From assembly GCA_944387095.1 (NCBI GenBank), contig CALXDP010000005.1:39015-103014 (forward strand): a stretch of 64,000 bases of DNA, written 5' to 3'. Below are positions 2,631-36,402 of the stretch, one piece after another. The notes below the pieces were generated by a model that ran no database searches, had not been told where the DNA came from, and was given only the letters and a program-made list of their open reading frames with translations. This stretch comes from an uncultured Oscillospiraceae bacterium (GTDB lineage: Bacteria; Bacillota; Clostridia; Oscillospirales; Oscillospiraceae). The stretch's first letter is position 1, and the number at the start of each line of letters is the position of its first letter. The translations under genes were made by a program, and so were the position numbers.

Positions 2631-4343
2631 ATGAAGCTGCACGGAATTGGCGCCTCTGACGGCATTGGGATCGGCACCGTGGTATGTGTCCGGGATCGGG
2701 ATCTGGACTACGGCAAGGTGCCTTATTCAGGGGCACAACAGGAGAAGGTCCGTCTGCATCAAGCGGTGGAGGCCTTCATCGCCCGTACCCAGGCGATGGC
2801 CGACCAGGTCAAAGCCCGGGTGGGGGAGAAGGAGTCTGAGATTCTCAGCGGGCAGATCACCATGCTGGAGGACCCCTATATGATCTCCCAGATGGAGCAG
2901 GCCATTGAGGACGGCAGCTGCGCCGAGGCGGCGGTGGACACGGTGTGCCGGACGTTCATGGAGATATTTGACGCCGCGGAGGACGAGCTGATGCGCCAGC
3001 GCGCCACTGACATCGGAGACATCCGCACCCGGATGTTGGGCCTCCTGCTGGGGGTGGAGGAGGTGGACCTGTCCGCCCTGCCCGCCGGCACGGTGCTGGC
3101 GGCCCATGACCTGACTCCCTCTATGACCATCGGGCTGGATAAGGAGCATGTGGTAGGCATCCTCACCGAGACCGGGGGGAAGACCAGCCATTCCGCCATT
3201 CTGGCCCGGGCGCTGGAGGTGCCGGCGGTGCTCAGCGTGCCCGACGTGCTGGAGATCGTGAAGGACGGCATGACCGCGGTGGTGGACGGCGGAGAAGGGG
3301 CGGTCATCCTGTCGCCGGAACAGGCCCAGCTAGAGGACTACCAGGCCCGGCGGGCCAAATGGCTGGGAGAGCGGGAGTTGCTCCAGATCTACCGGGATCG
3401 GGAGACCCGCACCGCCGACGGCCGCCAGGTGGCGCTGTACGCCAACATCGGCGGAATAGCGGACGCTCAGGCCGCTGTCCATGCCGGGGCTGAGGGCATC
3501 GGACTGTTCCGCACGGAGTTTTTGTTCATGGACCGTTCCGCCCTGCCCGGCGAGGAGGAGCAGTACGAGGTCTACCGTCAGGTGTCCCAGCTGATGGCAG
3601 GTAAAGAGGTCATCATCCGCACCCTGGACGTGGGGGGCGACAAGGGCATCGCCTACCTGGGCATGGAGGCCGAGGAGAACCCCTTCCTGGGCCACCGGGC
3701 CATCCGGTACTGTCTGGATCACCCGGAAATTTACAAGGTTCAGCTCCGGGCCCTGCTGCGGGCGGGAGCGGAGCACCGCAACCTGAAGATCATGCTTCCC
3801 CTGGTCACCGGCGTGGAGGAGATCCGGGGCGCCCGGGCTCTGCTGGAGACCTGTAAGGCGGAATTGGGGGCGGAGGGGAAGGCCTACGACGGGGAGATCG
3901 CTCTGGGTGTGATGATCGAGACCCCAGCCGCCGCCCTTATCGCCGACCTGCTGGCCCAGGAGTCCGATTTCTTTTCCATCGGCACCAACGACCTGACCCA
4001 GTACACCATTGCGGTGGACCGGGGCAATGCTCAGGTGGCCAAACTGTATGCGGTGTTCCACCCGGCGGTGCTGCGCTCCATCCGGCAGGTGATCGCCGCA
4101 GGCAAGGCGGCGGGCATCCCGGTGGGCATGTGCGGCGAGGCCGCCGCCGATCCCGCCCTGATTCCCCTGCTGCTCGCCTTCGGCCTGGATGAGTTCAGTG
4201 TCAGTCCCACCTCGGTGCTGTCCGCCCGCAAGCACATCGCCGACTGGAAGGAGGAGGACGCCGCCCGGGTGACCCAGGGGGCCATGGAATTGCCCACCGC
4301 CGCCCAGGTGGAGGCGTACCTCAAGGGTGTGCAGGGAAAATAA
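2631..4343 (+). CDS. ptsI: PTS enzyme I (phosphoenolpyruvate-protein phosphotransferase)
   Basis: 570 residues, typical for the family. It transfers phosphate from PEP to HPr. The phospho-histidine motif GGKTSHSAILAR places the active His at residue 187 (189 in E. coli). The C-terminal PEP-binding barrel is visible in LFRTEFLFMDR, in GTNDLTQYT and in the catalytic-Cys motif GMCGEAA. The frame is open 42 nt further upstream, but that extension overlaps ptsH, whereas the ATG at 2631 has a GGACGG site in front and gives the family N-terminus MKLHGIGAS. It is the last gene of the operon. Confidence 0.95.
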   Translation: MKLHGIGASDGIGIGTVVCVRDRDLDYGKVPYSGAQQEKVRLHQAVEAFIARTQAMADQVKARVGEKESEILSGQITMLEDPYMISQMEQAIEDGSCAEAAVDTVCRTFMEIFDAAEDELMRQRATDIGDIRTRMLGLLLGVEEVDLSALPAGTVLAAHDLTPSMTIGLDKEHVVGILTETGGKTSHSAILARALEVPAVLSVPDVLEIVKDGMTAVVDGGEGAVILSPEQAQLEDYQARRAKWLGERELLQIYRDRETRTADGRQVALYANIGGIADAQAAVHAGAEGIGLFRTEFLFMDRSALPGEEEQYEVYRQVSQLMAGKEVIIRTLDVGGDKGIAYLGMEAEENPFLGHRAIRYCLDHPEIYKVQLRALLRAGAEHRNLKIMLPLVTGVEEIRGARALLETCKAELGAEGKAYDGEIALGVMIETPAAALIADLLAQESDFFSIGTNDLTQYTIAVDRGNAQVAKLYAVFHPAVLRSIRQVIAAGKAAGIPVGMCGEAAADPALIPLLLAFGLDEFSVSPTSVLSARKHIADWKEEDAARVTQGAMELPTAAQVEAYLKGVQGK

Positions 4344-17340: not shown

Positions 17341-17377
17341 CAACCAATGCCCGCCGGGAAAGAGGCCTGTTTCCACC

Positions 17378-17539
17378 ATGATAGCGCTTCACACGACGGT
17401 GTGACAGTCCGCCGGGTATTTCCCGTCGGCCCAGGCAACATGGAACTGGACCCGCTCCACGCCCTTCGGCGGTACGGCCTTTCGCCGGAGGCAGTCGTCC
17501 ATGCCCTCCGGGTACTGATCGGTACCGCGCCTCTATCAT
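17378..17539 (-). promoter_or_regulatory. Lysine riboswitch aptamer
   Basis: The transcript read from the minus strand carries the conserved lysine (L-box) blocks in order: AGAGGCGCG, AGUA, GGAGG, CGAAAGG, CGCCGAAG, CUGGG, GGACUGUCAC and GUGUGAAGCGCUAUC. The closing stem P1 is ATGATAG (17533-17539) with CTATCAT (17378-17384). It sits between a sigma-A promoter and the transporter genes, with a terminator behind it, and should shut the operon off when lysine is plentiful. Confidence 0.95.
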
Positions 17540-17556
17540 TGGTTCAATTTGTGAGT

Positions 17557-33841: not shown

Positions 33842-33889
33842 TGTCTTGCCTCCAATAATAAAATGGTGCTTGGGAACTTGTCATCCGTA

Positions 33890-33918
33890 ATCATAGCACA
33901 GCGGGAGGAATTGTACAA
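33890..33918 (-). promoter_or_regulatory. Sigma-A promoter of pepF
   Basis: On the minus strand TTGTAC (33913-33918), 17 bp, TATGAT (33890-33895). Confidence 0.75.
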
Positions 33919-33977
33919 GACCTAGAAACGCGGGGCGAGGGGCGGCGCTGAGAGGCTGTCACCAAATTGTCACCCTT

Positions 33978-34007
33978 TTGTGGTTGCCTTTCCCCCCCGA
34001 CTATGAT
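33978..34007 (+). promoter_or_regulatory. Promoter of the DIP1984-family gene
   Basis: TTGTGG (33978-33983), 18 bp, TATGAT (34002-34007), about 65 nt before the start codon. Two TGTCACC copies lie just upstream. Confidence 0.55.
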
Positions 34008-34071
34008 ACCCTAGAAAAAATTCTGGCGGGCCCGGGCCCAGCCGGAATAAAAACCGCAAGGAGGTGCCGCC

Positions 34072-34521
34072 ATGAAATTAGCCGAAGCACTGCAGGAGAG
34101 ATCGGACCTCAACCGTCAGATTGAGCAGTTGAAGTTCCGCCTGACCAACAACGCCATGACCCAGGAGGGGGAGGCCCCCGCCGAGGACCCCGGACAACTG
34201 CTGGAGCAGCTCAACCGGGCCATCGCCCGGCTGGAGGAGCTGATGGCCGCCATCAACCTGGCCAACTGCCGCACGGTGGTGGACGGCATGACCCTGACCC
34301 AGCTCATCGCCCGAAAGGACTGCCTGCGGCTGAAGGTGGAGGCGTACCGGGATCTGGCGGAGGCGGCCAGCCAGACTGCCCACCGGGCCACCCGCTCGGA
34401 GATCCGGATCCTCAGCGCCGTGGACGTCAAGGCCGTCCAGGCGGAGGCGGACGCCATGGCCAAGGAGTTGCGGCTGCTGGACAACAGGCTGCAGGAGACC
34501 AACTGGACCACGCAGCTGTGA
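34072..34521 (+). CDS. DIP1984-family protein
   Basis: 149 residues behind AAGGAGGTGCCGCC. It is a coiled-coil-rich helical protein: MKLAEALQERSDLNRQIEQL and FRLTNNAMTQEGEAPAEDP match the conserved opening of the DIP1984 (septicolysin-like) family, followed by AAINLANCRTVVDGMTLTQL and ALDNRLQETNW-like C-terminal heptads. The family has no confirmed activity. The transcript continues about 220 nt past the stop through a structured, non-coding region to a strong terminator, which suggests the protein and an RNA are made together. Confidence 0.85.
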   Translation: MKLAEALQERSDLNRQIEQLKFRLTNNAMTQEGEAPAEDPGQLLEQLNRAIARLEELMAAINLANCRTVVDGMTLTQLIARKDCLRLKVEAYRDLAEAASQTAHRATRSEIRILSAVDVKAVQAEADAMAKELRLLDNRLQETNWTTQL

Positions 34522-34537
34522 GCGGCGGCGGCTGGTA

Positions 34538-34699
34538 GCCGGCGGTGCGAATGTGATCTCAGCGGCTGAGAATGAGTCCGCAGGTGGCATGCGCCCAAGG
34601 GCAGGCGCCGGGTTCGAATCCCGATGGAATCGTAATGCTCCGACCGCGCACGACCGCATGGTAATTTTGACAGCGCATCACCCAGCATTGGCCGCCGGC
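34538..34699 (+). ncRNA. Candidate structured RNA with a tRNA T-arm-like hairpin
   Basis: Between the DIP1984 stop and its terminator. A closing stem GCCGGCGG (34538-34545) pairs perfectly with CCGCCGGC (34692-34699). Inside are AATG/CATT and TGAT/ATCA (50-57 with 77-89), a 6-bp hairpin TCTCAG-CGG-CTGAGA (34557-34571), a 5-bp hairpin with 8-nt loop (34591-34608) and CGGGTTCGAATCCCG (34609-34623), which has the 7-nt loop TTCGAAT of a tRNA T-arm. No acceptor stem, so not a normal tRNA. The fold is by eye only. Confidence 0.45.
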
Positions 34700-34739
34700 G
34701 AGGGCGGGCACGGGGACCCGCCGCCCGGAAGAGATAGGG

Positions 34740-34777
34740 ACAGAGCGTCTGGTTTCAACACCAGACGCTCTGTTTTG
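34740..34777 (+). terminator. Terminator of the DIP1984 / RNA transcript
   Basis: A perfect 14-bp stem (34740-34753 and 34760-34773) with a 6-nt loop, then TTTT. The opposite strand has no T-run, so it serves the plus-strand transcript. Confidence 0.9.
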
Positions 34778-34782
34778 TCTAT

Positions 34783-36402
34783 CTATTTCACCCGGAAGGT
34801 CTGAGGGGCCCGGCGGTAGACCAGGGCCAGGATGACGGCGGAGTACACCACCGTCACCGCCAGCACCAGCAGGGCGAACCAGGAGGGGGTGCTGCGGATC
34901 TGGATGCAGGCGTAGCAGGCGATGTATACCGCGAGGTTGATGCCGGAGAAGAAGGGGTTCTTCACCTGCAGGTCGGAGGTGTAGGGCTGGAACAGGTAGT
35001 ACATACCCAGGCAGTGGACGGCGAAAAACACACCCAGGCACAAAATGGCGGCCAGAAAGACCAGATATTCCCCCAGGGGCGGCCGCCCCCCGGCGCACAG
35101 GGTGAGGATAGTGAACATGACGCACACCGCTCCGGACACCGCCAGATTGACGGCACACAGCCGGGTGAACCGGAGGAGGAAGTTTTTCAGCACCACATCC
35201 CCCTGGCGGTACCAGGGGTATTTCAGCATGGCCAGGTCGCAGTTGTAGAACATGGCCTTGCAGATGCGGGTGCCCACGTTGTTGTCCATGAAGTACAGGA
35301 AAAACACGCAGTAGGGCAGGGAGAGGGGGACGATGGTAAACAGCGATTCCGTCTCCGCCCCTCGGAAGATCAGCAGGCCGGCGGCCCCCACCACCGTCAC
35401 ACCGGCCAGGATGGCCAGCACGATCTTCACCGGCCTGTAGAGCATCCGGCGGTGACGGTGAAAGAACAGGGACTGGAGGTAGGGCCAGCCGGTGAGGTGG
35501 GAGTCCCCCTCCGCCGTCAGATCGCTGTCCTTGAGCTTTACGTCGTTGAACTGGGAGCCGCTGGCCTTCTGCTTGGCCAGCTCAGGGGAGATGTTCTCCG
35601 CCTTGCAGGTGTCCAGCGCCAGGCGGTAGTAGCTGGGGAAGCGAACCATATAGACTGCGCCCAAGACCCCCAGCACAGCCAGCGCGGCTACAGCGGCGGG
35701 GTGGAGCAGCACATCCTGGGGACGGGCCTGCGGCCAAACCAGAAGGGACACGAATGCCCCGGCCATACCCAACACCACCAGCAGGATGATGTACCATACC
35801 TTATTGCCGATGCTTATCCCGGTGCGGCTGTACAGGGCCAGGTGGACGGCCTCGGCGGCCAGCCGGACAAGGGCCAGCTCCAGGCCGATGACCAGCCCCG
35901 CCCAGGCTCCCGCCCCCAGCAGGGCGGTGACGATCATGAGCAGGGGGGTGAAGCCGGCCAGCTCAGCCAAATGGTGGCCCAGACCGGCGATCATCTGGTA
36001 GCGCCAGGCGTCCATGGCCATCATGCGCACGCAAATGTACTTCAGCTGGGAGGGGGCCACGGCGTGGGGCTGGAGCATGGTGCCCACCAGGAAGCTGAAC
36101 CAGAGAAAGAGCCAGCAGAAGGGGCCGAAGTTGTCCGGGCGCAGAACGCCCTGAGCCCCGGCATTCAGGGCCAGGGAGGCGACGATGAACAGCAGCGCCG
36201 CCAGGTACAGCACCTTGCCCCCGATGGCCCTCACAACCCACCAGAGGTTCTGGATGATGAACAGAGCGAACTTGCCTTCCCCGGCGGAGTAGAGATGGTC
36301 AGTGGAAAACCGTCGGATCAGGGGCAGGCGGCCGACCCAGTAGATGAGCTTGTTGCCCCGGATGGCCCCGTTGATGCGGAAGATGGTCCAGGCGTTACCC
36401 AT
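34783..36402 (-). CDS. ABC exporter membrane protein
   Basis: 539 residues with about twelve hydrophobic segments (for example LYLAALLFIVASLAL, LLMIVTALLGAGAWAGLVIG, IPFLVFLAAILCLGV-like near the end). The soluble middle contains KAENISPELAKQKASGS. It overlaps the ATP-binding gene by 8 bp (ATGGGTAA), so the two clearly form one transporter. The sequence is like large ABC-2-type permeases of unknown cargo; drug, peptide or lipid export is possible. Confidence 0.8.
   Translation of the reverse strand: MGNAWTIFRINGAIRGNKLIYWVGRLPLIRRFSTDHLYSAGEGKFALFIIQNLWWVVRAIGGKVLYLAALLFIVASLALNAGAQGVLRPDNFGPFCWLFLWFSFLVGTMLQPHAVAPSQLKYICVRMMAMDAWRYQMIAGLGHHLAELAGFTPLLMIVTALLGAGAWAGLVIGLELALVRLAAEAVHLALYSRTGISIGNKVWYIILLVVLGMAGAFVSLLVWPQARPQDVLLHPAAVAALAVLGVLGAVYMVRFPSYYRLALDTCKAENISPELAKQKASGSQFNDVKLKDSDLTAEGDSHLTGWPYLQSLFFHRHRRMLYRPVKIVLAILAGVTVVGAAGLLIFRGAETESLFTIVPLSLPYCVFFLYFMDNNVGTRICKAMFYNCDLAMLKYPWYRQGDVVLKNFLLRFTRLCAVNLAVSGAVCVMFTILTLCAGGRPPLGEYLVFLAAILCLGVFFAVHCLGMYYLFQPYTSDLQVKNPFFSGINLAVYIACYACIQIRSTPSWFALLVLAVTVVYSAVILALVYRRAPQTFRVK

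Follow-up and report, generated by a model that had tools for sequence, protein, structure and literature searches.

Gene and structured RNA at the locus

The 64,000-nt window analysed here, the whole stretch taken from contig CALXDP010000005.1 of an uncultured Oscillospiraceae bacterium, carries on its + strand a gene of the DIP1984 family (34072–34521), followed by a structured RNA unit of ~200 nt that runs from one strand of its outer stem P0 to the other (34524–34725). The gene is preceded by the ribosome-binding site AAGGAGGTG and encodes a protein of 149 amino acids, which matches NF038048 (DIP1984_fam) at 176.4 bits (E 3.7e-52; cut-off 70 bits) and the Pfam family DUF6847 (PF20935) at 166 bits (E 6e-49; cut-off 27 bits). 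The AlphaFold2 model of the protein, based on 63 sequences, is largely helical with a pLDDT of 95.2. Its sole clear solved relative is 3kdq, the DIP1984 protein of Corynebacterium diphtheriae, found by sequence (phmmer E 1.4e-22) and by fold (Foldseek E 8e-9, TM 0.87); besides 3kdq, the Foldseek search of the PDB gave no match below E 0.98. The two proteins share family and fold, and the title of 3kdq describes a 'functionally unknown conserved protein' and does not mention an RNA.

The RNA is defined by covariation and by a match to the covariance model R1, built from 22 sequences (11 from loci of the genus), at 34534–34716 with 182.6 bits, the window sequence itself being among the seeds. 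Counts of conserved motifs refer to an alignment (A6) of 85 matches from 84 sources, fitted to R1. All elements lie on the + strand. P0 is formed by GGCGGCGG (34524–34531) and 34718–34725, and is strong in part of the family. Inside it, the 5' motif GGUAG (34534–34538) is present in 52 of the 85 aligned members, with xGUAG or GGUAA in 22 further ones, and resembles the D-loop sequence of tRNAs. The 8-bp stem P1 pairs 34538–34545 with 34692–34699, and P2 pairs AAUGU (34550–34554) with 34685–34689. The P3 hairpin (34562–34581), supported by pair covariation and mutual information, exposes a conserved loop, CUGAGAAUGAGU, in which 34568–34573 pairs with AUCUC (34556–34560) to form the pseudoknot PK1. 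The P4 hairpin (34591–34608) consists of the stem GCGCC/GGCGC (34591–34595 with 34604–34608) and a loop, GGGC (34599–34602), that pairs with GCUC (34637–34640) to form the second pseudoknot, PK2. P4 abuts P5, the T-arm-like hairpin CGGG-UUCGAAU-CCCG (CGGGTTCGAATCCCG; 34609–34623). The unit is completed by a conserved G-rich 3' element, GAGGGCGGGCACGGGGA (34700–34716), which occurs in nearly all aligned members and is missing, by eye, from the Acinetobacter and Psychrobacter loci and from L046 and L104 (Bacteroidota by title).

A preliminary description of this DNA, made from its letters, had proposed a DIP1984-family gene followed by a structured RNA with a T-arm hairpin of exact loop sequence, a second hairpin abutting it and a perfect 8-bp stem closing the region. 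The profile matches, R1 and the covariation bear out the gene and the RNA, and all three helices were recovered exactly where they had been placed; the outer stem P0, the two pseudoknots and the conserved G-rich 3' element are additions to that picture. The tail also folds better than dinucleotide shuffles of itself (z -2.8; 1 of 200 equally good).

Behind the RNA, a 14-bp hairpin (arms 34740–34753 and 34760–34773) with a weak U-tract is probably a terminator, perhaps a bidirectional one, between convergent genes. The hairpin stands as previously described; its function as a terminator is less secure, as the tail TTTGTCTA is weak and a terminator scan of 33850–34850 reported none. No sigma-70-like promoter was found on the + strand of the locus. 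At five related loci (L002, L004, L005, L018 and L078), extra sequence with an AT-rich palindrome of the type TTCCTTTTTC...GAAAAAGGAA lies between the DIP1984 stop codon and the RNA.

Conservation of the fold and of the gene–RNA pairing

The RNA fold is kept by selection. In the A6 alignment, 93.5% of cells pair, compensatory changes on both sides occur in 33 of the 35 pairs, and 558 cells carry double changes against a shuffled mean of 149, a count that none of 500 shuffles reached. The covariation score is 0.535, compared with 0.194 for shuffled and at most 0.088 for slid alignments. The evidence from sequence comparison is far beyond chance. The alignment is biased towards P1–P5, because these helices were in R1; PK1 and PK2 were absent from the R1 structure and had been picked on visual inspection of sequences included in A6.

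The helices differ in completeness. Seven of the eight pairs of P1 form its main helix, with 91.9% of cells paired, and the eighth pair (helix 1) reaches 94.1%; double changes occur at all eight. Similar patterns are seen in P2 (99.3% paired; double changes at 5/5 pairs), P3 (89.5%; 4/4) and P4 (94.5%; 5/5), and in P5 99.3% of ungapped cells pair. PK1 is less complete, with 70.5% and 83.2% of cells paired and double changes at 5/5 pairs. In PK2, 98.5% of cells pair and double changes occur at two of the four pairs; at one of its pairs, A-U replaces G-C in 18 of 80 ungapped sequences, and two PK2 pairs rank among the model helices by mutual information. P0 was assessed on a separate set, in which 122 DIP1984 loci were reduced to 87 (23 could not be located by patterns, the others were identical), 7 irregular loci were set aside and the remaining 80 were reduced to 58. 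Across these 58, flank complementarity is 13.97 against 10.13 ± 0.36 in 200 permutations, being strong in part of the set only. A pairing of the 5' GGUAG with a 3' CUACC was dropped, because the ACC stays unchanged, by eye, where the 5' motif varies.

The RNA accompanies the gene with few exceptions. Among 60 relative genomes, DIP1984 exceeds the cut-off in 18, all inside the genus (37 genomes including the window's own), and the same RNA lies downstream of the gene in 18/18 of these loci. R1 matched those 18 genomes and, weakly, two more. One of the two, G033 (L138, 1493–1565), is a relic that has lost DIP1984 and most of the RNA and retains the final part of the RNA together with the same flanking genes. 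The other, G042 (19.4 bits), was taken as a chance match, as it resembles by eye a MutS-type coding region.

The pairing extends to a scan of named genomes, from which the best 80 of 476 DIP1984 relatives were taken as loci. R1 was run on 99 of 129 loci, the remainder being near-duplicates, loci that lack DIP1984 and a number of distant loci; among the latter, L119, L120, L123, L128 and L129 received no score as loci. It matched all 99 (22 seeds and 77 not used in its construction), 98 of them at E ≤ 0.0011; L091, which ends 118 nt past the gene, gave E 0.12, and the match at L118 spans only 57 nt. The RNA is on the gene's strand in 99/99 loci and lies 10–182 nt behind the first stop-codon base, in 84 of them 10–29 nt behind it. 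One locus, L049, carries tandem RNA copies (3566–3770 and 3834–4019) separated by an apparent remnant of the 3' end of DIP1984.

In a sample of 299 genomes of the phylum, DIP1984 exceeds the cut-off in 17, and R1 matches occur in 10, all within the 19 genomes in which DIP1984 was matched at E ≤ 0.001; one of the 10, G278, has a gene fragment only. With strict filters, which missed divergent members known from the loci (e.g. L113 and L115), R1 gave no match in the 280 DIP1984-negative genomes. In a class sample, R1 matches were found in 5 of 196 genomes, four with DIP1984 and one (G377) without, and the four are among seven genomes with DIP1984 over the cut-off. A weak match lies ~14 nt behind DIP1984 in G433 (18.5 bits, E 0.018), and a divergent copy of the RNA was recognised by eye behind DIP1984 in G429.

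By record title, the loci belong to Oscillospiraceae, Lachnospiraceae, Erysipelotrichaceae, Treponema and Bacteroidales/Paludibacteraceae bins. When R1 was run on 22 further sources, the RNA was also found behind DIP1984 in Actinomycetota, Cyanobacteriota and Pseudomonadota, with scores of 84 bits in Mycobacterium, 48 in Streptomyces, 40 in Paracoccus, and 32 and 29 in Picosynechococcus; the Streptomyces locus L143 (47.8 bits) yields a P1 of only 3 bp. Matches of ~16–25 bits (Acinetobacter, L118, L122, L124 and L125) are assigned by position, because the chance match in G042 reached 19.4 bits. R1 gave no score for L026, L027, L028 and L145, which were judged by eye and by their P1 stems. Loci of Acinetobacter plasmids, Psychrobacter and Enterococcus are among those without a score; there the assignment is based on position, on P1 and P2 and on shared GCGARYRC...YGA motifs, the P1 stems being 6–13 bp long, unrelated in sequence and taken from a best-stem search with favourable lengths. 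On the Picosynechococcus plasmids L144 and L147, the DIP1984–RNA pair is preceded by genes for a VWA-domain protein and a MerR regulator. Taken together, the gene–RNA linkage is near-obligatory and found in up to six phyla, two of which are based on titles and call for caution, because metagenome bins may carry wrong titles. The earlier idea that DIP1984 and the RNA form one system gains support from this pattern, in which the tail is conserved, covaries, and is present or absent with the gene with few exceptions; the proposed alignment of downstream regions with a covariance model returned strong conservation and covariation in relatives.

tRNA likeness, RNA-repair genes and mobility

The T-arm is a real but optional domain of the RNA, not its defining feature. 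The T-loop pattern (UUCRANY) is present in 73 of the 85 aligned members and absent in 12, several of which have a U-rich linker at the T-arm site. By eye, the T-arm is found in Mycobacterium and Streptomyces and not in Picosynechococcus or Acinetobacter, and the pattern is missing in the cyanobacterial and proteobacterial copies. The T-arm mimic named in the preliminary description holds for most members and fails as a general criterion. In the assembly, the exact sequence GGGTTCGAATCCC occurs five times: three times in tRNA genes, once uncalled near a contig end and once here. An ordinary tRNA or tmRNA is ruled out, as ARAGORN called no gene in the window or in five further RNA-bearing loci. 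This agrees with the initial view that the RNA is not an ordinary tRNA; the acceptor stem is indeed lacking in the tRNA sense, yet the RNA is closed by P1 and in many cases also by P0. An obligatory partnership of GGUAG, as a D-loop, with the T-loop is not supported, because GGUAG stays, by eye, in several members without the T-arm.

The Rfam scan suggested at the outset found no family for the RNA: over the whole window, Rfam 15 reported at gathering score only a lysine riboswitch elsewhere (17374–17543, - strand, 93.5 bits), and 20 related loci gave no match at threshold. The best weak match at the locus was mascRNA (RF01684), with 19.9 bits and E 0.12 against a gathering score of 42.5. The tRNA-like fold of MALAT1 mascRNA and menRNA shares the T-arm and the adjoining hairpin with the present RNA; however, a mascRNA-like cloverleaf is rejected, because its acceptor pairing would conflict with the covarying P3.

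A connection to RNA repair had been hinted at in the preliminary description, and part of it is visible in the gene order. In Acinetobacter, the order is rtcB, an unknown gene, DIP1984, ~260 nt including the RNA, and rtcA. Among the best 80 of the 476 loci, with flanks of up to 4 kb, RtcB lies near L101, L049/L050 and L038. L101 and L049/L050 share the Lachnospiraceae block DUF4253, DIP1984, RNA, (ORF), RtcB and a 215-aa open reading frame (ORF), and were counted as one arrangement because their surrounding genes are common to both; in L038, RtcB is upstream with one other ORF intervening (crude ORF calling). By a rough estimate, this proximity is above chance. Of the neighbouring ORFs compared with Pfam (99 of 121), which matched 128 families, GNAT families lead among the 25 families listed with up to 5/99, and the other listed families reach at most 2/99, RtcB being at 1/99. 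No RtcB match was found in the window's own genome. The flanking genes of the Acinetobacter module and of two Clostridia arrangements fit the hint, but co-occurrence does not, and the link to RNA repair is weak. In Acinetobacter baumannii exposed to tigecycline, rtcB and a hypothetical gene directly downstream were the most induced, at 252-fold, and DIP1984 is not named in the accessible part of that report (PMC7652931); a minocycline study gives a 2.6-fold increase of rtcB in its accessible text (PMC9741440).

The module is frequent on Acinetobacter plasmids: of 370 plasmid records that matched DIP1984, 341 belong to this genus. In a nucleotide search with 409 matching records, 26 of the 60 matches listed end at query position 855 or 877 and five further ones begin at 852 or 854. 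These boundaries (31/60 listed) correspond to L026 2252–2277, just behind the RNA on an Acinetobacter plasmid. A site that resembles a pdif XerC/XerD site occupies L026 2252–2278 at the downstream edge of the DIP1984–RNA block. Gene and RNA seem to travel together, because the homology blocks end at this pdif-like site; the mapping covered the downstream edge only. No DIP1984 match was found in viral contigs, and phage records gave five, of which three are entered under the name Acinetobacter phage MD-2021a.

The DIP1984 proteins of Acinetobacter plasmids are commonly annotated as septicolysin (e.g. H26, H64, H82 and H103). The name is in use (accessible part of PMC13141974), and septicolysin is listed as a putative virulence factor, a thiol-activated cytolysin, in the available portion of PMC5559437. 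No cytolysin family was among the Pfam and NCBIfam matches of the window protein, and its model gave no cytolysin fold in the PDB below E 0.98; both results refer to the window protein. On profile and model evidence, the label is probably a misnomer on these plasmids.

A putative ribonucleoprotein and its alternatives

Near-constant pairing of the gene and the RNA across diverse bacteria makes it probable that both work together. The reading favoured here, with a probability of roughly 55%, is that the RNA represents an undescribed class and forms a ribonucleoprotein (RNP) with DIP1984, the binding and the function being inferred. The locus would then be one accessory module, composed of a helical protein and a ~200-nt noncoding RNA in the 3' region of its gene. 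The RNA may be cut or terminated free of the DIP1984 mRNA, DIP1984 would bind and stabilise the freed RNA, and the resulting RNP would act in trans. More speculatively, where the T-loop is present and where the module lies next to rtcB/rtcA, it would serve in RNA-damage or translation stress; one form of this would be a tRNA-shaped decoy, another a scaffold for RNA-processing enzymes. Opinion is about evenly balanced on a broader version, in which this would be a new, ancient and mobile RNP class of up to six phyla, with a double-pseudoknot RNA, in many cases bearing a tRNA T-loop, that acts in trans in RNA or translation stress, and with septicolysin as its protein subunit rather than a cytolysin.

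Several observations weigh against the RNP. Pfam, NCBIfam and Foldseek give no recognisable RNA-binding domain in DIP1984, and the protein is slightly acidic by a rough count. The pairing has exceptions on both sides: G377 holds a divergent RNA (L160, 187–383; 39 bits) near a contig start, the 186 nt upstream of which lack DIP1984 in a genome for which no DIP1984 was reported, and the divergent homologue in G443 has no detectable RNA. The Acinetobacter rtcB-type loci score 16 bits (E 0.0018), below the chance match in G042. Furthermore, RtcB is present in 2/18 DIP1984-positive against 4/19 negative genomes of the genus, and in 9/17 positive genomes against 163/299 overall in the phylum sample; dependence on RNA repair is rejected, as there is no co-occurrence with RtcB. 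Finally, the RNA might be a cis-acting 3'-UTR element, because it starts right behind the stop codon.

In this last case, which is unlikely but deserves serious attention, the RNA would stay in the DIP1984 mRNA and serve its stability, its ending or autoregulation by DIP1984 on its own 3' untranslated region (UTR), and no trans-acting RNA would exist. The constant placement directly downstream on the same strand in 99/99 loci, the missing sigma-70-like promoter on the RNA strand and the loss of the RNA along with the gene in G033 are all consistent with it. However, a length of ~200 nt, two pseudoknots, the optional T-arm and a frequent P0 exceed the needs of a stability element, and both the tandem duplication of the RNA in L049 and the RNA without a gene in G377 speak against a cis role. 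A toxin–antitoxin-like pair that persists on plasmids and disappears from chromosomes, with the RNA neutralising DIP1984 (type III-like) or vice versa, would account for the unit of two parts, its patchy distribution (18/37 genus members; 17/299 of the phylum sample), its abundance on Acinetobacter plasmids and the pdif-like edge of the block. Type III systems combine an RNase toxin with a repeat RNA antitoxin upstream. The RNA here is instead usually single and downstream, the helical fold of DIP1984 matches 3kdq only and no toxin or RNase fold, a PADLOC search with DIP1984 gave nothing meaningful (best E 0.19), and G443 has the gene without the RNA, so that such a pair appears improbable. 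Least credence is given to catalysis by the RNA, through self-cleavage or another reaction, which would release or cap the transcript with DIP1984 as protein cofactor. The compact double-pseudoknot fold and the strongly conserved unpaired stretches (the G-rich 3' element and the GUACA region), features also seen in complex RNAs, would fit such an activity, but no Rfam family was matched at threshold and a candidate cleavage site was not identified.

As judged from sequence and fold, the RNA class is new, whereas its general kind, a structured RNA linked to a protein, has precedents. No description of a DIP1984-linked RNA was found in the literature, subscription journals lying mostly outside the coverage. 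The Ro60 (Rsr) system likewise has a protein encoded next to a structured and partly tRNA-like RNA, Y RNA or YrlA, in some cases within rtcBA operons (accessible part of PMC7790460). It differs in that DIP1984 is not a TROVE protein by Pfam, NCBIfam and Foldseek, and in that the T-arm is optional here. Rfam includes Y RNA and YrlA families, and neither is among the six matches obtained in the locus up to E 10. The OLE RNA with OapA is a complex conserved RNA encoded beside its presumed protein partner, and OLE, GOLLD, ROOL and raiA are all in Rfam; OLE/OapA and similar large protein-linked RNAs have the same arrangement, but protein and RNA differ and no Rfam family was matched at threshold here. 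In addition, Burroughs and Aravind reportedly described in 2016 a novel tRNA-like RNA of SPFH/Band-7–RtcB systems, which similarly lies beside RNA-repair genes; the partner there is SPFH/Band-7.

A complex RNA that crosses phyla and is tied to a single uncharacterised protein family is rare, and earlier protein-linked RNAs, such as Ro–Y and OLE, opened fields of their own. The finding calls into question the 'septicolysin' label on Acinetobacter plasmids, and with the covariance model and the structure, available RNA-seq data can be searched for the RNA. For the DUF6847 family, it provides the first functional handle and a candidate partner.
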